Assembly (NCBI RefSeq): GCF_003946405.1
Contig: NZ_RHOG01000035.1
Coordinates: 1-32,001 of the forward strand
Direction: 5' to 3'
Source: Lacticaseibacillus yichunensis
GTDB lineage: Bacteria > Bacillota > Bacilli > Lactobacillales > Lactobacillaceae
Length of the DNA stretch: 32,001 nucleotides
Shown: positions 1 to 25,106 of the stretch, in pieces
Layout: the number at the start of each line of letters is the position of its first letter
Position numbering within the stretch: the stretch's first letter is position 1
Notes under the pieces: model-generated
What the model was told of the DNA's origin: nothing
Seen by the model: the letters and a program-made list of their open reading frames with translations, nothing else
The model's database searches: none
Program-made: the position numbers and the translations under genes

Positions 1-91
1 TGACACTATATTTGTCCGCGACCTCCTGTATGGTCCCTTGACGCGATATGAAGGCCTCAACGACTTCTTTCTTGAACGGGCGTGCGGACAA
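1..91 (-). pseudogene. Transposase-like helix-turn-helix N-terminus, cut by window edge
   Basis: The minus strand from a possible TTG at 91 down to the window edge reads without a stop. It gives a peptide containing PFKKEVVEAF, then GTIQEVADKYSV, the usual look of the first helix-turn-helix of an IS-type transposase OrfA (a short basic start, then a recognition region of the EVADKYSV kind). Only about 30 residues are visible, so the family and intactness cannot be judged. The frame also stays open upstream of the TTG, so the start is uncertain. It faces away from a second transposase-like fragment at 119, which suggests this end of the window is a junction of mobile-element debris. Confidence 0.4.
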
Positions 92-118
92 AAAGTTGGA
101 CTTCAGGTATGATATTAA

Positions 119-376
119 ATGTACTCACTAAAAGAGAAGCAGAGGGCCGTCGAGCTCTTTCACAAACATCACAGATCCGCTAGTCAAGTTGTCAGAGAAT
201 TGGGCTACCCGTCCACAACAATGCTGATGCACTGGGCAGCTGACTATCAGGAGGGACAGATGTCTGACCAAAGAAGATCTACAGAGTTCGGCGTGCGGCG
301 GTTCTTGTGTGACCCCATCACACTATTTTCATACGTCCCTTCGAAGGGCGTGCGGACCACGGGCCCCCGCGGCTGA
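119..376 (+). pseudogene. Truncated IS3-type transposase OrfA fragment
   Basis: The first 45 or so residues begin MYSLKEKQRAVELF and contain ASQVVRELGYPS. This is the helix-turn-helix start of IS3/IS150-group OrfA proteins common in lactobacilli, where a lysine-rich first helix is followed by a VIRELGYPS-like turn and a tryptophan a few residues on (here MHWAADYQ). A full OrfA would continue for roughly another 50 to 120 residues and be followed by an OrfB with a DDE domain. Here the similarity stops near residue 48, about position 262, and the rest reads into unrelated repeat DNA (the 240-bp duplication starts at about 308). No OrfB is present. It is therefore a remnant, and its residual open frame is probably meaningless. 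Confidence 0.6.
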
Positions 377-3808: not shown

Positions 3809-6800
3809 TTACGAGCGTTTCCGCCGGGTCGAGTCGAGCACATCGAGCCCTAATCCACCGAGCAGCAAGGCGCCTAGCGCTGTCAGAATCATCGTCTGCC
3901 CCTCACCAGTTTGTGGCAGGGTCTCCGCTTTGGTGGCCTTCGCCGTCGGTTTTGGCGAAACCGGCGCAATCGGCGTTGTGTCAGGTATCACATCCGGAAC
4001 TGGCTGATTCGGCGTGGTTGGTTTCGTTGGTGTGGTCGGCTTTGTCGGCTTTGTCGGCTTCGTTTCCTTCGCAGGCGTTTTCGCATACGTGAGCACGAGG
4101 TGTTGCGGATCGCCGAAGACGCCGGTCAACGGGCCATCGCTCCCAACAAAATCATAACCAGGGAAGGTCGGTGCGGTGATCGTAAATGGATCGCCCGCTG
4201 TGCCGATCAGGACCAGATCCTCGCGCAGTGTGTTGCCGGTCGCCTGATCAACGAATGAAACCGTGACTTGCCCCGCGACAGGCGGCACATCGGCTTTCGT
4301 GTAGCGCAGGGTGATCGTCTGCGGATTGCCGAACGCGCCGGTCAACGCGTGGTCCGCGCCGAGGTAGGTGTAGCCGTCGATCTCAGGAATCGTGACGGTG
4401 AACTGGGTACCTCGGGTATTGGTCAAAATCGTGTCCGCCCTCAGTGTGTTGCCGTTGTCGTCGACATATTTGACCGTGACTTGACCCGCGACAGGCGGCA
4501 CTTCGGCTTTGGTGTAGCGCAAGGTAATGGTCTGCGGATCACCGAATGTGCCAGTCAGTGCGTGGTCCGCGCCGAGATAGGTGTAGCCCGCGATCTCGGG
4601 TACCGACACAGTGAAGGCCTTGCCGACTGTATCGGTCAAAAATGTGTCTACCTGCAAGCTGTCGCCGTTTTCATCGACATACTTCACAGTCACTTGCCCG
4701 GCGATTGGCGCGATATCTTCCTTTCTGTAGCGGAGGGTGATTGTCTGCGGTTCACCGAATGTGCCAGTTAGACCGTGGTCCGCGCCGAGATAAGTGTAGC
4801 CCGCAATCTCGGGTACCGAAACAGTGAAGGCTTTGCCGACTGTATCGGTCAAAACAGTGTCTGCCTGCAAGCTGTCACCATTTTCGTCGACATACTTGAC
4901 GGTGACTTGGCCCGCAACTGGTGCGGTATCTTCCTTGGTATAGCGCAAGGTGATCGTCTGCGGCTCACCAAATGTACCGGTCAACGCGTGGTCCGTTCCG
5001 AGATAAGTGTAGCCCGCGATTTCAGGCACCGAAACGGTGAAGTCAGTCCCAACCGTATCGGTCAAAATTGTGTTTGCCTGCAAGCTGTCGCCATTTTCGT
5101 CGACATACTTCACGGTAACTTGCCCCGCGATTGGCGCGACGTCTTCCTTGGTATAGCGCAACGTGATGGTCTGCGGCTCACCGAATGTGCCAGTCAGCGC
5201 GTGGTCCGCGCCGAGATAAGTGTAGCCCGCGATCTCAGGTACCGAAACGGTGAAGGCAGTCCCAACCGTATCGGTCAAAACAGTGTCTGCCTGCAAGCTG
5301 TCGCCATTTGCGTCGACATATTTGACAGTCACTTGCCCCGCAACTGGTGCGGTATCTTCCTTTGTATAACGCAGGGTGATTGTTTCGGGCCCAGTGACAT
5401 CGAAGGTCAGATCATGGTCGGCGCCTTGGTAAATGTAGCCGGGCACATCGGGTGGGGTGATCGTATGGGTCTCGCCAATTGGGACGGTGACCTCGATCGG
5501 TGCGGCGATCGCGTCACCATTTTCATCCTCAATATTGACGGTCAAGGTCGCCTCGTCCTTTGCGTAAAGTAGGGTGACGGCGGTCGGGCCGGTCAGTGTG
5601 CCCGTCAAAGCGGCATTGTCGGCGGTGCCCACATAATGGTAACCCGTGATGTCGGGTGTTTCGATCTGGTAGGTATTGCCGACCTGGACCACGCGGACGG
5701 TCTCGTCGCGCAGGGTCGCGTGGGTCGTTTCGTCCTGGTAGCTGACGGTGATTGTGGCGGCGCTCGGCGGGGTTGGCGTGGCGGACTTGTTGCTGACGTA
5801 GCCGTAATCTGTGGCGTCGGTGATGTATGCGATCATGATGGACCAAATATTATAAGTCTGGTTATAGGCTGAATCCTTATAGGCGAAAAGCATGTAGTTC
5901 GTATACGGATTCTGAATGATTGTCTCGCCGTCTCCGTATGGGTTGGTCAACGGCCCAGGCATGACTTGATCTTTCAGGTTGGTGTAGCGAACCGTGAGAT
6001 CGTCGCCGGCGGGGTGGCTGATATTGCTTGACGTCGCGCCGTTATAGTAAACGCGCTCCGACTTACCCATATCGACATCAAAACCGAACTGTTTGCCGGT
6101 GCCATACAGTAGAGGATCGGTCAAGTCCATCCCCTGAGGCAGCTTGCCACTCATGGTGTAGGTATAGGTCCCATCCTCACTTTTCACCACAGGCAGGACG
6201 ACTTGTTGTTGAAAAATCGCAAATTTACTTGTGTACTGCGCGGCATTCAACGAACTGAAATCCAGAATGTTATCGTACTGAAGCCCAAGATCCGTCACAT
6301 TTGTCAGGCCAGCCAAGGCATCCACTTCACCAATGCGCTGCCCACTCATGTCGATGGTCGTCAGGTTCGTCAGATTCTGGAGTGGCCACAGATCAACGAG
6401 GCCACCATCCCAGGTCTTCTGCCCGTAATTGAGATCCGTGTCCATCTGAATGTTCGTCAGATTGGTCGCATACTGAATCCCATCTAGCAAATAGATCGTT
6501 GTCGGGTCGATATACGTGCCAAATTGATTGCCCGCGCGATAATCGACAGCCAGCTGCGTCAGCTTTAACAGGCTGTTTTTCGAGATCTGATCCACGGAAG
6601 TCCAATTGCCGGTCGGATCCTGTTGTTGCAGGTTATGCAAAACCAGTTGCTGGAGATACGTATTCGGCATCCATTCATCAATATAATTGTTGCCCGTGGC
6701 CGCATCGACCCCAGTCGCGTCGCTGGCGATCGCCGCCGCGGCCGCCTGACTGGTCCAAGCAGAATTGAGGCCGGTAATATATTGGTCGCCGATATGACTG

Positions 6801-11600: not shown

Positions 11601-13522
11601 CCGATTCCGAGATCACAGTGACGTATGTCCGCGCCTATGAAATTTCTGATATGTCGACGGTCACCCAGACCATCACGTATCAAAATAAGTATGGTGATAT
11701 CATTCATGAACCGGCGACTGCGACCAAGACCGTTTTGACCGTTTCCGATGGCCAAGGGGGGACCACCACATTTGTTGCGGATGGCGCTGTGACGGATCAG
11801 CCGACCCTTGACGAAAATGGCGTGCCGACAACTGGCAATTGGACGCAGGTACCGGCTGGGGAGACCCCACTTTTTGCCCCGGTCATCAACCCGACTATTG
11901 CGGGGATGCACGTCGTTTCGACCACGGATCCGGCCGGAGACCTCACCCGCATCACGGCCCAGCCCGTGACCGGCGACGCGAGCCAGGACTTCACCGTCAC
12001 CTACGACTACACCGAGGGCGTGGTCCCGCCAGAAGAAGCGGCGACCCTAACCGTGCAGTTTGTCGATGAAAATGGGAAGACCCTACTGCCGAGTGAGCGC
12101 AAAGCCTTTACGATTGGGAGCGGGTATGAGTACACCGCACCGGCGATTGGCGGGTATCATCTGGCGACTGCCGAATTGCTGGCGGATGCTTCTTTGACGA
12201 ATGGTGTGGCATCCGGCCACATCACGACTTCAAATGATATTTTGACCTTTGTCTACAAGATGAATGATGGGGTGGTCCCACCAGAAGAAGCGGCGACCCT
12301 GACCGTGCAGTTTGTTGATGAAAATGGGAAGACGCTGCTTCCGAGTGAGCGCAAAGCCCTTACGATTGGGAGCGGGTATGAATATACCGCACCGAAGATC
12401 GGCGGGTACCATTTGGAGACTGCCGAATTGCCTGCCGGGGGTTCCTTGACCGAGGGCGTTGCGTCGGGTCAGATCACGACTTCAAATGATATCCTGACGT
12501 TTGTCTATAAGATGAATGATGGGGTTGTGCCGCCAGAAGAAGCGGCGACCCTGACCGTGGAGTTTGTCGATGAAAATGGGAAGACGCTACGTCCCTCTGA
12601 GCGCAAAGCTCTTACGATTGGGAGCGGGTATGAATACGCTGCACCAGAGATTAGTGGGTACCATCTTGAGACCGCGCATCTGCCGGCCGGGGGTTCACTC
12701 TCGGATGGCGTTGCGTCCGGTCAGATCACAACTTCAAATGATGTCCTGACCTTCGTCTACAAGATGAATGATGGGGTAGTCCCACCAGAAGAAGCAGCGA
12801 CCTTGACCGTGCAGTTTGTCGATGAAAACGGGAAGACGCTGCTTCCAAGTGAGCGCAAAGCTCTTACGGTTGGGAGCGGCTATGAATACACCGCACCGGA
12901 GATCAGTAGGTATCACTTGGAATCAGCTGAATTGCCAGCGGATGGCACCTTCACTGATGGTGTCGCGAAGGGTCAGATCACAACTTCACATGCTGTGCTC
13001 ACCTTCGTCTATAAGATGAACGAAGGCGTGACGCCGACCCCGCAACCCGCGACGCTGGCCATCCATTTTGTTGACGGCGCAGGACATACCATCCAGCAGG
13101 ACACGGTTTTGACCCGGGCGGTCGGCAACGGTTACACCTTCGTCGCCCCGGCGCTCACAGGGTACACGTTTGATCACGCGATTTTGCCAGATGGCACGGA
13201 AAGCCGGAACCGGACGACGATCGGGACACTGACCGCAGATGCCCAGGAATTGACCCTGGTCTATCTGCCGAACCAGGCGCCGGTCGAGCCCTCCAAGCCG
13301 ATCACGCCGGTCAAACCGGAGACCAAGCCGACGACCCCAACCAAGCCGGAAGCCAAACCGCTGGCCAAGCCAATTGCGACGAAACCAGCTGCGACTAAGC
13401 CAGCTGAAAAATCGTTGCCGCAGACCGGCGACAGCCAGGATGGCTTGTTGGCAGCGATGGGCGCGTTGATGCTGGCGAGCCTCGCGCTTGTCGGAATTCG
13501 GCCGACGCGTAAAGAAAAATAA
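8690..13522 (+). CDS. Giant LPQTG-anchored adhesin, divergent paralogue
   Basis: A 1610-residue surface protein starting at ATG 8690 behind GAGGAGGA. The signal peptide carries a degenerate KxYKxGKxW motif (KMYKAHKQW) and is probably cut near residue 42 (VWA-DE). Residues about 44-217 are a Ser/Thr/Ala/Asp/Glu-rich stalk. An LRR-like region at about 283-457 (LKTINLS, LTNLTQLQSV, DISPLASD) is clearly related to that of the divergent protein, including the shared WMP and LQYATNL elements. MucBP-like beta modules fill about 570-1110. Four near-identical 84-residue modules (VQFVDENGKTL) lie at about 1111-1446, with a diverged fifth to about 1527. A Pro/Lys/Thr-rich part, LPQTG at 1576-1580, a hydrophobic helix and the tail RPTRKEK complete sortase anchoring. 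Probable role: adhesion. The ligand cannot be told from sequence. Confidence 0.93.
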   Translation: MDQQRKTHFKMYKAHKQWLVAGVTAFSLVVGGAFGTSHAVWADEGTPVVSAENSAGQQATDQESGDLTPAAQTPAKANGDAGQTPTTGEAAPTTDGTQPTAASAQTGEQTAQVSDTDGTSSNDADSSVTAQDVASSKGTDLDGANSNNVNDEAESAETPATDQSQQARPEARSARALSESEDGSDPAETPADEDAEEAPSDGETDPANDQQTSPLLGLSNNEVDGADLANVIAATNTFNVSKTNALQYTYSHLDRDASLKNMSGAKMWQSQAFADAIPMDAAGYYQNTTVYNIDLWMPDYALQYVLWQSAFSSQYATINDFRANFTKNDLAALTNFTTDQAAQNTYGNSQTQGAPTTYYQALMSMQSLEGLQYATNLKTINLSPNIIVSENVYGTPTKNGNLWDIKALTNLTQLQSVQMVMFSITDVTALGDKPSLTNLSLSYNMITDISPLASDSGLNGSAALGFQHVLLDSITIREGTASYTTPSFIVKDLTDTNVPVQGYDGSGQSGYPGLYPSSSNGGNIDPQTLTWYGMLPDTSTNYGAFSTTWNDAATGFEGWFIQPYALDANASNIVVNYQLLKADGTQLTLAPSTVLSAEVDDTANLLSTTTVVNRITNLVNEQGFTFAGRLIDGTGLFADAMANNGLAHFLATDAVTFTEDPQNFTILFLQDWDLTVHCYAKTIDENGAEVLTEMPAAIAPSKTTSTNLNTPVLITDIVPDLSADKYAFDRVDTSPEGINWTTLSADATTLPFQDNDQEVRVIYHAVQQAKVQFVDADTLDANGDPTVLETLDYTTDPALQGELGAAITYDPAAKIAAYEAAGYRLVSDGTTSGYDFPLDPLADTPIFTITLAHTQSLKDTTTVAQTIHYTDGTDPLAPDATQQVTFTTVVDNTIPNDPGTVYFKLGENTPALDATTQLFDSTGWTVYGDDAKPSFTVTANPAVPGWRVDLINPAQTGLTQVDETAVTPTTADSEITVTYVRAYEISDMSTVTQTITYQNKYGDIIHEPATATKTVLTVSDGQGGTTTFVADGAVTDQPTLDENGVPTTGNWTQVPAGETPLFAPVINPTIAGMHVVSTTDPAGDLTRITAQPVTGDASQDFTVTYDYTEGVVPPEEAATLTVQFVDENGKTLLPSERKAFTIGSGYEYTAPAIGGYHLATAELLADASLTNGVASGHITTSNDILTFVYKMNDGVVPPEEAATLTVQFVDENGKTLLPSERKALTIGSGYEYTAPKIGGYHLETAELPAGGSLTEGVASGQITTSNDILTFVYKMNDGVVPPEEAATLTVEFVDENGKTLRPSERKALTIGSGYEYAAPEISGYHLETAHLPAGGSLSDGVASGQITTSNDVLTFVYKMNDGVVPPEEAATLTVQFVDENGKTLLPSERKALTVGSGYEYTAPEISRYHLESAELPADGTFTDGVAKGQITTSHAVLTFVYKMNEGVTPTPQPATLAIHFVDGAGHTIQQDTVLTRAVGNGYTFVAPALTGYTFDHAILPDGTESRNRTTIGTLTADAQELTLVYLPNQAPVEPSKPITPVKPETKPTTPTKPEAKPLAKPIATKPAATKPAEKSLPQTGDSQDGLLAAMGALMLASLALVGIRPTRKEK
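12020..13027 (+). repeat. 252-bp tandem repeats encoding MucBP-like modules
   Basis: Four copies with an exact 252-bp period (84 codons) start at about 12020, 12272, 12524 and 12776, each with the TGGTCCCGCCAGAAGAAG-like sequence. The repeat length and sequence differ from the 213-bp repeats of the divergent adhesin, so the two arrays expanded independently. Confidence 0.88.
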
Positions 13523-19953: not shown

Positions 19954-20820
19954 ATGTTTAATAGGAAGCTTTTCGATCAGGCCAATGAAGATCTGAAGCT
20001 GGCAGATGAACACTACCAGGAGCAAGGCACTATTCTCGCAGATCAAGTCAAGGACCTCTACCAACTTCGCCTCACCAGCATCGCGCTGATCAAAAAAGTC
20101 CAAGCGCATGTCTCCAAATTGGCAAAGACCCCAAAAGACTTTCAGGTGACCCAACACCAGATCATGCTCGAGATCGAGGCATTTGATTTGAAAGAAGAAA
20201 CAGTAAAACGCGCAGGTCACCAAACGACGCTCGGAGCCGGGGCTGCGGCGACCGGCACGACCCTCGCGGCGCTGGGCGTGGCGGTCGCGACGATGGGGCC
20301 AACTGCGGCCATGGGCATCGCGACGACCTTTGGCGTGGCCTCAACCGGCACCGCGATTGCGTCTTTGTCCGGGGCGGCCGCGAACAGTGCCGCCCTGGCC
20401 TGGCTTGGCATGGGCACCGTTGCCGCTGGCGGCGGTGGCATGGCGGCGGGCACGACACTTTTAGCGCTCGCCGGTCCAGTCGGCTGGACAGTCGCGGGCA
20501 TCGCTGGGACGGCCAGCGTCGTCACCGGCGTTTTGACCGCTCGGAAAAATAAAAGTGAAGCGGGCAAGCTGGTGGCGCAGCGCCTCGACCTGGAAAAGGC
20601 CAGCGTCAACATCGCACGCCTGATTGAAGAGGTCGCCGACCTAAATGTGGTGACCGAGCGCCAGCGCACCGCAGTCCGTGAGGCGAACAAGGCGGTGACC
20701 GGCACCGACTACGCGAGTTTTACCCATGACGAAAAGGCGCAGGCCGGCCTGCTCGTCAACGCGACCCTGACACTTGCGCAACTCGTCAACAAGGAGATGG
20801 CTTTGCATGAAGAAGACTAA
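19954..20820 (+). CDS. Uncharacterised protein with glycine-rich hydrophobic core flanked by helices
   Basis: A 288-residue protein starting at ATG 19954 behind GGGAGGAC. I do not recognise a named family. Residues 1-85 are charged and helical, likely coiled coil. Residues about 88-190 are a long Ala/Gly/Thr/Ser-rich hydrophobic stretch (LGAGAAATGTTLAALGVA, ALAWLGMGTVAAGGGGMA, LALAGPVGWTVAGIAG) with the small-xxx-small spacing of glycine-zipper membrane segments. Residues 190-288 are again charged helix. There is no signal peptide. Such architecture is seen in membrane-inserting or pore-forming proteins and in partners of dynamin-like GTPases, but no GTPase is present here. The next gene overlaps by 14 bp, so the two are translationally coupled and probably work as a pair. 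Confidence 0.8.
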   Translation: MFNRKLFDQANEDLKLADEHYQEQGTILADQVKDLYQLRLTSIALIKKVQAHVSKLAKTPKDFQVTQHQIMLEIEAFDLKEETVKRAGHQTTLGAGAAATGTTLAALGVAVATMGPTAAMGIATTFGVASTGTAIASLSGAAANSAALAWLGMGTVAAGGGGMAAGTTLLALAGPVGWTVAGIAGTASVVTGVLTARKNKSEAGKLVAQRLDLEKASVNIARLIEEVADLNVVTERQRTAVREANKAVTGTDYASFTHDEKAQAGLLVNATLTLAQLVNKEMALHEED

Positions 20821-22309
20821 ACAATCGCCGCTTGCGCATGATGCATCCCAGGGCGTGGCCTCTTATGTCGGCTTCTTGAATTACCTGCGCCTCAGCGAGC
20901 TACAAAAATCGCTGACCGCCATTCTTGAAAACGAATCTCGTGACCTAACCAAATGGGCCGCTCAAGTAGAATCTGCGTTGGCGGAAATGGATGGGGCTCA
21001 CGCAGATATTTCTGCACTGATCGATAGCGGTCGCGGTGGGCTGAAAGGTGTTCACGGGTTCATCGCCGAGCGAGCGGAAGTCGGTATTCGCAACGCTCGT
21101 GATCTTATAGCGGACCTTGAGCCAGGAACAGCTTGGCTGAACAACAACGGCCACGCGGACCTGTTGATTGGGGGCCGCGGCGTGCAGATGAAATTTTACC
21201 AAGACCTGAGCCGGGAAATTGCCCAGGCTCGAAACTATCCAGACCTCCAGATGATGATTCCGCGGGACCATTTTTCCGCGATCGAAGCCATCATGGCCGG
21301 TGAAAAGAATGTCAAGATGGGCGACAACTCGCTCCGGCTTTCGACGATCACGGAGATTCGCAGCGCCGTCACCCGCGAAAGCGAATTGCGCGGACAATCC
21401 TTTGAACAGTGGTTGCGCCCGTCTGTAGACGATTACGCCGGTGTGCAGCTCAAAACGATCGATGGGACCCTGAAAAATGAATCCGCAACTCTGCACGACA
21501 CCGCGACTGCCGGGAAAAAGGCGGCCCGCAACGATACCAAAAAGGCGCGTGCCACCGCGCAGCAGACCGCCCGACCGAGCATGGCGGAAGGCGTCAAATC
21601 CGCGGGTGTCGGTGCCGCGCTTCAAGGGGGCCTCGGCCTCGCTGGCTTTATCTATCAGAAGCACCGCAATGGCAAGGAAGTTTGGCAATTCGAGGCGGAT
21701 GATTGGGCTGCTGCTGGTGTAAAAACAGGAGCCGAATCGCTCAAAGGCGGCATCTCTGGGGCATCGATCTATGGCCTCACCAACGTCACGAAACTTGCTG
21801 CGCCAAGCGCTGGTGCTGTCGTGTCTGGCACATTTGGGCTGGCAAGCGCAACACTCCAGCTCAGGCAGGGAACCATCGATGCTGACGAGTTTTCCGATCT
21901 GGTTCTGCTCAACGCGATCGAGGCGACCGGCGCAGCGGTGGGTGCGGTGCTTGTGCAAACGCTGATCCCCGTGCCAGTGCTGGGCGCGCTGATTGGCTCG
22001 ATCGCCGCCTCCGCCGCGATGCAGATGGGCGAAGGCATTTTCGCAGATAGGGAAAATGCGCTGGTGGGGCAAATGAAACAGCGCGTCGACGCCGCAATCG
22101 CAGGAATGTCTGCCGACGCGCAAGTTTCACTGGCTACACTGAGGACGCAATTCGCGTCACTTGGCCGCTTGCAAGATTCTGCCTTTGATCTTGAGCGGAA
22201 CATCCAGCTACGATTTGACGCCTCCATTGATTTGGCCAGAGCCGCGGGGGTTTCTGAGAAGATGATTAGGCACCAAATAAGTGAAACGGATCAGTATTTC
22301 TTGAGCTGA
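20807..22309 (+). CDS. Uncharacterised partner protein with glycine-rich hydrophobic C-terminal half
   Basis: A 500-residue protein. ATG 20807 is chosen because AAGGAGATGG lies just upstream; it overlaps the preceding gene by 14 bp. Residues 1-100 are helical. Residues about 105-210 hold a compact module with a GHADLLIGGRGVQMKFYQD-like core, YPDLQMMIPRDHF and QSFEQWLRPS. It resembles a recurring module in large uncharacterised bacterial proteins, which I recall only loosely. Residues about 215-255 are Lys/Ala/Thr-rich. Three glycine-rich hydrophobic stretches follow at about 258-285, 311-348 and 366-410, the last containing LIPVPVLGALIGS. A final helical part runs to the stop. There is no signal peptide. 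It forms an operon with the previous gene, and the 2-kb palindromic array starts 68 bp after its stop. Possible roles are membrane attack or phage defence, unproven. Confidence 0.75.
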   Translation: MKKTKQSPLAHDASQGVASYVGFLNYLRLSELQKSLTAILENESRDLTKWAAQVESALAEMDGAHADISALIDSGRGGLKGVHGFIAERAEVGIRNARDLIADLEPGTAWLNNNGHADLLIGGRGVQMKFYQDLSREIAQARNYPDLQMMIPRDHFSAIEAIMAGEKNVKMGDNSLRLSTITEIRSAVTRESELRGQSFEQWLRPSVDDYAGVQLKTIDGTLKNESATLHDTATAGKKAARNDTKKARATAQQTARPSMAEGVKSAGVGAALQGGLGLAGFIYQKHRNGKEVWQFEADDWAAAGVKTGAESLKGGISGASIYGLTNVTKLAAPSAGAVVSGTFGLASATLQLRQGTIDADEFSDLVLLNAIEATGAAVGAVLVQTLIPVPVLGALIGSIAASAAMQMGEGIFADRENALVGQMKQRVDAAIAGMSADAQVSLATLRTQFASLGRLQDSAFDLERNIQLRFDASIDLARAAGVSEKMIRHQISETDQYFLS

Positions 22310-22377
22310 TCAGTGAGGCTCGGGTCGTGTAGATGGCTTGGGCCTTTTTCCGTTGAGTTAGGGTTGCCCCTTTCTCC
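22310..22377. other. Short leader between the gene pair and the array
   Basis: 68 bp without a recognisable gene or a convincing terminator. The transcript of the gene pair may therefore run into the palindromic array. Confidence 0.4.
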
Positions 22378-24370
22378 GGACTCGGGGTCCGTCGATGTCG
22401 AGGTTTTGACGTCAACAGGCATAATTCACGGACTGGTGGTCCATTTTTTTAAACGTTGAACTGCGGCGTGGCTTAGATCCGTGGACTCCCGGTCCATGGA
22501 TCTCGAGGTTTCGAGGTCACAGCGCGCAACTCGCGGACTGGGAGTCCACAGCTATAATCATTGCACCGTGAAACGTCATGTATCGGCGGACTCCCGGTCC
22601 ACGGATTTTGAAGTTTCAAGGTCAAAACGCGCAACTCGCAGACCGGGATTCCGGGGTTGCGCGTTGAATCGTGGAGCAAAGTAAATCTGCGGACTCAGGG
22701 TCTGCAGATCTCGAAGATTCGGCGTCAAAGTACACAACTTGTGGACCGAGAGTCCATGGATTAACTATTGAAACGTGGAAGGACTTATATCTGCGGACTC
22801 AGGGTCTGTGAATCTTGAAAATTTGGCGACAAAGCATACAACCCGCGGACCATGAGTCCATCGATTCCAAATATACGAGGTGCAAGCTAGCAAGTTGTGG
22901 CCCGGGAGTCCGTGGATTGACCGTTGAAACGTTGATCGGCTTATATGCGGACTCAGGGTCTGTGAATCTTGAAAATTTGGCATCAAAGCATACAACCCGC
23001 GGACCATGAGTCCATCGATTCCAAATATACGAGGTGTAAGCGGGCAATTCGTGGACCGAGAGTCCATGGATTGACTATTGAAACATTGAACGGCTTATAT
23101 CTGCGGACTCAGGGTCTGCGGATCTCGAAAATTTGGCCTCAAAGCATACAATTCGAGGACCAGGAGTCCATCAATTCCAAATATACGAGGTGCGAGCTAG
23201 CAAGTTGTGGACCGGGAGTCCGTGGATTGACCGTTGAAACGTTGACCGGCACATATCTGCGGACTCAGGGGCTGCGGATCTCGAAGATTCGTCGTCAAAG
23301 CACGCAATTTGCGGACTGGGAGTCCATAGACTTAATCTTTGAGCCTTGGCACAGAATTCATTGGCGGACTCGGGGTCCATGGATTTTTAAGTTTCGAGGT
23401 CCTAGTGCGAAACTCGCGGACCGAGAGTCCGTAGATTGACCGTTGAAACGTGGAACGGCTTATATCTACGGACTCAGGGTCTGCGGATCTTGAAAATTTG
23501 GGCGTCAAAGCATACCATTCGCGGACCGGGAGTCCATAGACTTGATTGATGTAATGTGACGTTGCATAAATCCGCAGACTCCTGGTCCGCCGATTTCAAA
23601 GCGTCGAGGTGCATGCGGGCAACTCGTGGACCGGGAGTCCGTTGATTGAGCGTTGAAGCGTGGAGCAGCTTATATCCACGGACTCAGGGTCTGCGGATCT
23701 TGAAAATTTGGCGTCAAAGCATACAACTCGCGGACCGGGAGTCCATAGACTTGATTGATGTAATGTGACGTTGCATAAATCCGCAGACTCCTGGTCCGTC
23801 GATCTCAAAGCGTCGAGGTGCATGCGGGCAATTCGTGGACCGGGAGTCCGTTGATTGAGCGTTGAAACGTGGAACAGCTTAAATTTGCGGACTCAGGTTC
23901 TGCGGATCTTGAAAATTTGGCGTCAAAGCATACAATTCGCGGACCAGGAGTCCGTCGATTCCAAATATACGAGGTGCAAGCTAGCAAGCCGTGGACCGGG
24001 AGTCCGTGGATTGAGCGTTGAAACGTGGAACAGCTTAAATTTGCGGACTCAGGATCTGCGAATCTCGAAATTTGGGCGTCAGAGCACACAACTTGTGGAC
24101 CGGGAGTCCATGAATTTGATTATTGAACTGTGGCGCGGACCAAATCTCGGACTCCGGGTCCGCCAATTACAAAGTTTCGAGCCCCAAACAGGCAAATTCG
24201 CGGACCGAGAGTCCATGGAGTGCGCGTGGAAGTGTGTAGTCGCATAAATCAGTGGACTCCGGGTCCGCTGATTTCAAAGTTTTGCCCTCAAAGCACAAAA
24301 CTGGCGGACTGGGAGTCCATGAATTGCGCGTTGAACGTTGTTGTACTCAAGCATAGTGGACTCAGAGGCT
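22378..24370. repeat. 39-box palindromic array with 52-bp period
   Basis: Thirty-nine 13-bp boxes of the form GGAC-N5-GTCC (with some mismatches) start at 22378, 22430, 22483, 22535, 22588 and so on to 24358. Successive starts are 50 to 53 bp apart, most of them 52, with a mean of 52.1. Two forms occur. Form F is GGACTCNNGGTCC or GGACTCAGGGTCT; form R is its complement type, GGACCGGGAGTCC. They alternate F-R, except at four places where R follows R (22847/22899, 23001/23053, 23157/23209, 23941/23993). The spacers of about 39 bp fall into a few recurring classes. One has AAATTTGGCGTCAAAGCATA after F, one has GTTGAAACGTGGAAC before F, one has CCAAATATACGAGGTGCAAG between two R boxes, and one has GATTGATGTAATGTGACG before F. 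Nothing in it looks coding. Confidence 0.95.
23470..23889. repeat. Recent 210-bp duplication inside the array
   Basis: The four-box blocks starting at 23470 and 23680 are nearly identical over about 210 bp, including all spacers. They differ by scattered substitutions and one length difference. The blocks starting at 22795 and 22949 (about 154 bp, three boxes each) are a second such pair. The array therefore grows by duplication of whole multiples of the 52-bp unit. Confidence 0.8.
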
Positions 24371-24382
24371 GAGCATATTTAT

Positions 24383-24410
24383 TGCTTTCCAAATTGTTTG
24401 GGTGTAAATT
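24383..24410 (+). promoter_or_regulatory. Promoter with internal palindrome upstream of the TetR gene
   Basis: TTGCTT (24383-24388) and TAAATT (24405-24410) are 16 bp apart. The spacer contains the palindrome CCAAATTGTTTGG (24389-24401). A palindrome between -35 and -10 is a classic place for a TetR-type autorepressor operator. It differs from the GGAC boxes of the array. Confidence 0.45.
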
Positions 24411-24458
24411 GACCGCAAAGAAAAGTGACTGTCAATGAGGGTAAAGGGGGAATCATTG

Positions 24459-25106
24459 ATGGATAACGCAAAGAAGCACGCTTCGAATTGGGCGAGCATG
24501 GGCACGGCCACCCGGCGAAAAATGATCCTAGATGAGTTTGAAACAGAGATGCGGCTCCAAGATTATCGCGATATAAATATTAGCGCTCTGGCCACGCATC
24601 TGAATATTGGCAAAACAATGATCTTTCGTAGTTTCCCAACCAAGGCCAACCTGGTTACAGCCCTAGTCCTGCGGGATCTTGAGGCATTCGGGCCGGCGCT
24701 GGTGAACGCGCTGGGTGCCACAAATCACCAGGTGCTCCAGAAATTTTTCGCGGAACAGGTCACGCGGCAGTTGCCGCTTCTCAAGAGTCTGGCGCTGGCG
24801 CGGAACCTGACGGAAAAAGATATGCCTGCAGCTGATCTGGCGGCGTTTCATGTGGGGCTGGTGAAGCAGTACCAACAGATCGCCGCGCAGCTGAAGGCCA
24901 AGCAGGGGTTTATGCATGAAAATGAAACCGCGCAATTGGTGCGGCTGGCGTTGGTGCTGTTGGTGGATGCGTGCGATGATACGCGGTATGATCAAACGCC
25001 GCTGCGTGCGGCCGATGCGGTGTGGGCGCAGTCGCGCGTTTATGTGAATCGCGCCTATGGTGGTTCGGCGCCAAATGGGCTGCGCCAGCCGCGGCGTCCG
25101 AGTTGA
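24459..25106 (+). CDS. TetR-family transcriptional regulator
   Basis: A 215-residue protein. ATG 24459 is chosen behind AAAGGGGGA; in-frame codons upstream are less well placed. Residues about 18-65 form the TetR DNA-binding domain: a first helix with MILDEFETEM, then INISALATHLNIGKTMIFR and the typical FPTKANLV continuation. The C-terminal 150 residues are a diverged all-helical ligand or dimer domain with no recognisable subfamily. It is the first gene after the array and stands alone in its transcription unit. The natural target is its own promoter palindrome. Whether it also affects the upstream gene pair or the array cannot be told. The last 15 or so residues are low-complexity and basic. 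Confidence 0.85.
   Translation: MDNAKKHASNWASMGTATRRKMILDEFETEMRLQDYRDINISALATHLNIGKTMIFRSFPTKANLVTALVLRDLEAFGPALVNALGATNHQVLQKFFAEQVTRQLPLLKSLALARNLTEKDMPAADLAAFHVGLVKQYQQIAAQLKAKQGFMHENETAQLVRLALVLLVDACDDTRYDQTPLRAADAVWAQSRVYVNRAYGGSAPNGLRQPRRPS

Follow-up and report, generated by a model that had tools for sequence, protein, structure and literature searches.

The stretch of DNA considered here (the window, 32,001 nucleotides) is the whole of contig C29 in a Lacticaseibacillus genome assembled as 2.56 Mb in 73 contigs. Its most conspicuous feature is an array of 39 boxes of the form GGAC-N5-GTCC (the GGAC or A class), which stand on a 52-bp grid between positions 22378 and 24370. Upstream, on the forward strand, are genes for proteins of 288 and 511 amino acids (19954–22309), which match the PADLOC models PDC-M09A (E 1.8e-89) and PDC-M09B (E 5.6e-155), respectively, and are as such a candidate anti-phage defence pair; the pair is probably not part of the array element, and the 511-aa gene is present in two of 30 genomes of the genus. 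A terminator-like hairpin, called by consensus scan only, follows the upstream gene (22315–22346, forward strand), and the array starts 31 bp past it. On the other side of the array, and read away from it, is a TetR-like gene (24435–25106, forward strand), the product of which is put forward below as a candidate partner protein from its TetR_N and PDB profile matches and its distribution. Elsewhere in the window, ORFs of 1610 and 1592 aa contain tandem repeats of 252 bp (12020–13020) and 213 bp (4266–5383), respectively; these are probably repeat domains of surface proteins, the domain type being a guess.

Regularity of the array

The sequence-only reading had described 39 boxes spaced 50 to 53 bp apart with a mean of 52.1 bp, and a recount returns the same figures, the mean start-to-start spacing being 52.105 bp. 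The sequence GGAC-N5-GTCC is matched exactly by 25 of the boxes, with one mismatch by nine and with two by five, an off-grid site with two mismatches at 24137 having been left out of the count. Sites with at most one mismatch number 34, whereas 300 mononucleotide shuffles contain 0.75 on average and never more than 3. Autocorrelation, which had been proposed as a check, duly gives peaks of 0.39, 0.43, 0.43 and 0.41 at lags of 52, 104, 156 and 209, against a mean of 0.25 (sd 0.035) over lags 5–329. The further claim that the two reverse-complementary central sequences mostly alternate is borne out, since 26 of the 32 adjacent oriented pairs switch from one core orientation to the other (T..G and C..A), a value reached by none of 5000 label shuffles; the core is symmetric in four of the 39 boxes. 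Moreover, the spacers fall into a few recurring classes and the boxes themselves vary, in agreement with the earlier conclusion that the array is not CRISPR.

A covariance model of the wider repeat family described below (R1), which contains no row from the window array, parses the array into 17 pair elements, each with its boxes 52 bp apart, and five more boxes. The elements lie at 22377–22443 (E 2e-12), 22482–22548 (1.3e-10), 22587–22653 (2.5e-10), 22690–22756 (1.4e-12), 22794–22860 (2.5e-13), 22948–23014 (3.2e-13), 23104–23170 (3.2e-13), 23260–23326 (1.3e-11), 23365–23431 (1.3e-11), 23469–23536 (8.5e-13), 23575–23641 (2.8e-9), 23679–23745 (1.7e-14), 23784–23850 (3.5e-9), 23888–23954 (2.1e-12), 24044–24110 (4.5e-11), 24148–24215 (2e-13) and 24253–24319 (5.8e-15).

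In Lacticaseibacillus mingshuiensis the array has an ortholog (locus L024) of 24 boxes in the same gene neighbourhood and, because this version is assembled there, an assembly artefact in the window is unlikely. The two arrays are 95.1% identical over aligned positions, short flanks included. The window array has extra blocks of 503 + 15, 105 and 156 bp and, as these are about 10, 2 and 3 units long, whole units appear to have been gained or lost locally; the comparison of array length that had been recommended was in this way made between two species, in which the length differs by whole units. A protein-coding role for the array appears unlikely, given that a 52-bp unit is not a whole number of codons and that such gain or loss of units would shift reading frames.

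A palindrome-pair family in two sister genomes

The window array belongs to a family with many intergenic arrays, both in the window genome and in L. mingshuiensis. The family unit consists of two boxes of ~15 bp, CGnnCYCNGRGnnCG, placed 52 bp apart. Within the common form CG-nn-CYCNGRG-nn-CG several arm classes are found (GA/TC, AT/AT, TA/TA, GT/TC and rare others), the inner flanks of the pairs read GCRAAT...ATYYGC, and single boxes of a further kind, B boxes (GTGTGAYGNCRTCACAC), sit between the pairs. The sequence-only reading had overlooked both that the boxes fall into several classes over many loci and that the window contains another family array, at about 300–760. This second array (360–754) comprises four pair elements of the GGAC and GATC classes at 360–421, 448–514, 596–662 and 688–754 (R1, E 9e-7 to 1e-13); two B-like boxes, read from the sequence, lie beside it (307–323) and within it (552–568).

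The pitch of 52 bp is common to the classes. In the 30 loci fetched, 445 boxes belonging to three classes were located with no pairing criterion in the selection; 149 of the 156 box pairs at 52 bp are of the same class (label-shuffled mean 69, maximum 86), the distance between boxes of the same class peaks sharply at this value, and 55 of the 58 GATC-class pairs within 21–99 bp are exactly 52 bp apart. In a separate count, inverted pairs number 86 at 52 bp, as against nine at 53 bp and six at 51 bp. Distances from GATC to GGAC boxes of 41 and 93 bp recur, as do whole box orders, for example B-DD-AA and B-CC-B-AA, in which D is the GATC, A the GGAC and C the TAC class. At locus L038 of L. mingshuiensis (1223–1690), the B boxes are mostly 36–41 bp apart, not 52.

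For the analysis of individual elements, 145 pairs were found and 11 with weak cores dropped; 95 of the 134 left lie outside the window and L024 arrays, and the alignment comprises 66 non-redundant rows. The L. mingshuiensis loci were chosen for their B or GGAC-pair matches, which leaves out others, for instance on contigs C11, C18 and C19. In the 95 elements the choice of arm bases is stricter than pairing requires, with one position lacking C and the next lacking G or C. In addition, AT patches recur every 9–10 bp in the interval, with z of 24–35 in these 95 discrete elements and 4–8 in the window array, although these scores are no probabilities since the copies are related, as holds equally for the derivation of the base preferences. 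For the window array, the phasing of these patches is not significant when a period of 10.4 is taken (z 1.7).

The family was found in only two sister Lacticaseibacillus genomes among those searched. The search of related genomes that had been called for gives R1 matches in two of 60 related genomes under stricter filters, and the window array is not unique. The GGAC pair pattern occurs in two of 150 genomes, the GATC pair pattern in two of 301 genomes of the family Lactobacillaceae, and the B pattern in two of 30 genomes of the genus. In each of the two genomes there are at least 150 R1 matches, both strands counted, on scoring of 150 of 753 and 150 of 1044 candidates. One array of ~1.7 kb in L. 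mingshuiensis stands between genes that we take, from our own reading and a sigma-factor motif, to be rpoD and trmK. Among the other 28 genomes of the genus, none has an R1 match at this locus, and in the 24 of them in which it could be measured the distance from the putative rpoD stop to the trmK match is 75–805 bp (median 139). Of the proteins that flank other array loci, many are members of ordinary families (for example Ppx/GppA, thiamin pyrophosphokinase, HAD hydrolase, EF-Tu-type GTPase), and several have no family; one gene beside an array, at L032 1794–2600, has matches to DUF2399 and to the C-terminal domain of Wadjet JetD.

Candidates for relatives further afield were rejected. In a search for relatives outside the genus, a three-box pattern matched nine genome contigs, one of which is L. 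mingshuiensis, the other eight being without an R1 match at E up to 1. On viral contigs the GATC pair pattern gave five matches, which have one common sequence context and do not match R1, the B pattern gave seven single matches and the GGAC pair pattern none; R1 run over these 12 loci gave one match, at E 0.42. The window array and the array at L042 have no match in 72,556 plasmid records or among phages. The earlier reading had held that an exact match to a known repeat family with an assigned function would count against it; within the window there is no Rfam family at gathering score, and no description of a repeat of this design was found in the titles and abstract openings that searches of open-access literature listed.

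Comparison of the two species provides some insight into how the boxes have evolved. Over four aligned orthologous arrays taken together, 45 of 882 box sites differ, as opposed to 130 of 1372 in the intervals and 270 of 2837 in the linkers (P 1.4e-4 and 2e-5), such that the box divergence is half that of the surroundings, with the proviso that a site was scored as box if it is so in either species, which favours the boxes somewhat. In the window array alone the boxes (9 of 322 sites differing) are no more conserved than the linkers (5 of 210), but more so than the intervals (53 of 670). The nearest copy of an L. mingshuiensis element is in its own locus for 51 of 69 elements, in another locus for 16 and tied for two, and a copy of at least 90% identity exists in the same locus for 31 of the 69 and in another fetched locus for none of them. 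Amplification is for the most part local, and the loci that were fetched bear no trace of recent transposition.

Other observations concern the assembly and its mobile elements. In the window genome, ten or more contig ends have family elements no further than about 360 bp away (on C5, C25, C27, C29, C31 at both ends, C38, C44, C53 and C56), and because so many ends adjoin the elements the arrays of this genome are probably under-assembled. IS-like ends, in our own reading, follow the motif GGGCGTGCG, which recurs in the arrays, at window positions 1–300 and at the ends of L026, L027 and L028; two different end sequences are each seen twice, which suggests that insertion sequences insert at the repeats. 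Lastly, a 2.2-kb stretch of L. mingshuiensis (L036 1615–3854) that contains arrays and a 104-aa ORF of no clear family is absent from the window genome at L048 1415.

TetR-like genes and single-class arrays

The assignment of the gene downstream of the window array to the TetR family comes from several matches. The protein matches Pfam TetR_N at E 7.5e-4, under the family cut-off, and the Pfam scores of its subfamily, 19.7 and 23.8 bits against a cut-off of 24, are weak but consistent. A PDB profile search matches TetR-family chains, and Foldseek, run on a predicted structure of low confidence (mean pLDDT 58.9), also returns TetR-family chains, at E 4e-3 or worse. Among 30 genomes of the genus, strong matches to the protein occur only in the two that bear arrays, two further genomes matching at E 4–5e-4. 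This restriction is weak evidence of a connection with the arrays, since the two are sister species and the 511-aa neighbour is restricted too.

By sequence search alone a single paralog was found, which is from L. mingshuiensis (identity 32%, E 7.6e-28) and has the C-terminal GLRQPRRP in common with the window protein. The paralog gene sits within an array locus, L038, where a run of 12 B boxes lies upstream of it and a mixed cluster downstream. A profile made from the three sequences of the subfamily matches in 20 of the 30 genomes at E up to 0.001; matches other than the members are counted as general TetR relatives because the best of them scores 37.5 bits, as compared to 385 or more for the members. 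By the same profile, no further member that might correspond to the GATC or TAC class was found in the 30 genomes, nor was an ortholog of the paralog detected in the window genome. An ortholog of locus L038 is not among the 19 window-genome loci compared, and the TetR-like proteins have no match in plasmids.

In a subset of the fetched loci, 25 in number, the clusters of at least four sites were classified. Only two are of a single class, the GGAC array of the window and L024, where the only interruptions are single sites assigned to a different class, and the B cluster of L038; in any other cluster the longest run of one class is five. Each of the two single-class arrays stands upstream of one of the two distinct members of the TetR-like subfamily that were found. 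The association therefore consists of two loci, that of the window, which was given by the starting observation, and L038, which is an independent match. Decay of the B boxes, predicted for the genome in which the paralog was not detected, was not seen: perfect B boxes make up 4 of 42 in the window genome and 14 of 114 in L. mingshuiensis (P 0.78), or 3 of 24 and 7 of 67 at orthologous loci (P 0.72).

Proposed operator-like sites, possible hairpins and known systems

Our tentative reading, to which we would assign a probability of about 0.42, is that the REP-like palindrome-pair arrays serve as operator-like DNA-binding sites and that their TetR-like neighbours are the binders. Each pair of boxes would be occupied by two dimers of protein, both on the same face of the helix and with a bend in the 52-bp interval that separates them, the TetR-like protein next to the window array binding GGAC boxes and its L. 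mingshuiensis paralog binding B boxes. Each regulator gene would follow an extensive array of binding sites for its own product, the mixed arrays would spread the same sites around the chromosome, and units would be gained and lost locally via recombination or slippage. The pitch of five helical turns, the pairing within classes, the restricted bases and the slower divergence of the boxes fit paired dimer binding. Counting against it are the GATC and TAC classes, to which no subfamily member found corresponds, the B boxes, which are no more degenerate in the genome where the paralog was not detected, and the window array, whose boxes are as divergent as its linkers. The protein-binding array of the sequence-only reading is in this regard made more plausible by a pitch kept across classes, phased AT patches, slow box divergence, base choice and a TetR-like gene at both single-class arrays, the protein being a candidate binder only. 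Its more specific form, a partition or centromere-like site, gains no particular support, as the sites occur at many ordinary gene borders.

A close rival is that these are hairpin repeats of the REP or BIME kind with no dedicated protein, acting, if at all, through a hairpin or cruciform formed by each pair, and kept by local tandem amplification with occasional spread; this too has a reasonable, if lesser, claim to be right. Palindromic, extragenic pairs at a fixed distance with compensatory arm classes are the layout of REP doublets, and copy number changes by whole units. In addition, a hairpin fold is obtained for 63 of 66 pairs under RNA parameters (mean z −3.8) and for 59 of the 66 under DNA parameters (mean z −2.7), figures that are inflated, as are those for covariation, because the 66 rows were picked for palindromy and box similarity. 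The chained hairpins that had been envisaged may form, but the pairs fold as one long hairpin each, not as two small ones. Other features speak against hairpins as the purpose of the design: bases within the boxes are more restricted than pairing needs, and pairs changed on both sides are not in excess (7, against 7.3 in shuffles), even though the cells of this kind are (135 against 60). The mirrored asymmetry expected of an inverted repeat is not significant, the second box being closer to the first as an inverted copy in 32 cases and as a direct copy in 27, with seven ties (P 0.60); the boxes are nearly symmetric, and within the window array the alternation of orientations is clear. The GTAG tag occurs in none of the 132 outer and none of the 132 inner 8-bp flanks, and CGTC in four of 132 outer and none of 132 inner flanks, which is not above background. 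As for a RAYT as mobiliser, Y1_Tnp is matched five times in the two assemblies, which are fragmented, and two of these matches fall at contig ends; the loci read around the five contain neither a B box nor a pair of boxes, and such matches as there are to the boxes are loose and isolated. With regard to a MITE, the elements lie in arrays and no parent transposon was identified.

That the arrays are a neutral or selfish satellite of duplication-prone palindromes, with no present function and with TetR genes as neighbours by coincidence, seems improbable. It would accord with the confinement to one small clade (two of 60 genomes, or two of 301 by one class pattern) and with the close copies that are local in 31 of 69 L. 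mingshuiensis elements and in another fetched locus in none. Diverged copies nonetheless keep both the exact pitch and the matching of classes, and in the four arrays the boxes show half the divergence of the intervals and linkers, a difference to which box detection contributes somewhat and which in the window array does not extend to the linkers. We give still less weight to a transcribed structural RNA of chained hairpins, or a series of terminators. The folding z-scores of the pairs would be in keeping with it, as would six terminator-like sites in 22200–24500, five of which are in the array or at its end (shuffle mean 2.2, sd 1.6). On the other hand, promoter-like sites are near chance (three against 1.8, sd 1.2), the array begins after a terminator-like hairpin, no Rfam family reaches gathering score in the window, and an RNA role needs neither symmetric boxes nor a DNA-like phasing of 52 bp. 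Scarcely credible, finally, is a CRISPR array or plasmid partition site, for which the regular spacing is the only argument, set against spacers that recur in classes, boxes that vary, related arrays located between ordinary genes and the lack of any match to the window or L042 arrays in the plasmid records.

Returning to the operator-like reading, the bound arrays are favoured, by analogy, to be a chromosomal site system which in outline is of the SlmA or RefZ kind; autoregulation with titration, gene insulation and chromosome organisation may be other roles. A bolder extension, which we think rather unlikely, would see a natural operator-array system that spans the chromosome. The gene for each member of a small TetR-like subfamily would follow an extended, uniform array of that member's sites, and at gene borders these sites would be combined in orders that recur, such as B followed by a GATC pair and a GGAC pair, to give regularly phased platforms of several proteins by which the genome is organised or insulated. 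The role of extragenic palindromic repeats in bacteria is still debated and, with an exact pitch, several classes, two close genomes and a named candidate protein, the question of platform versus hairpin is directly testable in lactobacilli.

Operators of the tetO type, which lie close to a tetR-type gene, are 15-bp palindromes around one central base and to that extent resemble the boxes; the difference lies in the tens of copies per array here and in the mixed arrays elsewhere. SlmA is also a TetR-like protein with specific chromosomal sites, those of the present family being putative. The SBS sequence of SlmA differs from the boxes, and the window protein is not a SlmA, since it scores 17.7 bits with the equivalog model NF007015, the cut-off of which is 120.

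REPINs are REP doublets, i.e. palindromes paired at a fixed distance (PMC3116915), and the likeness of the present family to REP doublets, REPINs and BIMEs extends to extragenic palindrome pairs at fixed distance, a variable spacer, clusters, complementary arm classes and a hairpin fold (PMC3116915, PMC3733652). The earlier statement that no named bacterial element has this design is thus too broad in respect of the general layout, though the tests for tag and transposase failed. The family has not been filed as REP or REPIN because two defining features were looked for, a GTAG or CGTC tag and a transposase (RAYT) gene flanked by the repeats, and neither was found; it differs, too, in that several arm classes share one pitch of 52 bp, and its nearly symmetric pairs show no significant preference for the inverted arrangement. 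The phyla given for tagged REP families in one passage of a source do not include Bacillota, and its main text is without the words ‘Firmicutes’ and ‘Lactobacillus’ (PMC3733652). In Bacillus subtilis, RefZ is a TetR-family protein with nearly palindromic chromosomal sites (RBMs), each thought to be bound by a pair of dimers; the likeness is in a TetR-family protein and nearly palindromic chromosomal sites, with binding here only proposed, and the difference is that RefZ has five such sites in place of arrays (PMC6657595). What is new in relation to these systems is a palindrome-pair repeat of the Lactobacillaceae in which several classes of box share a 52-bp pitch and for which a TetR-like protein is a candidate partner.
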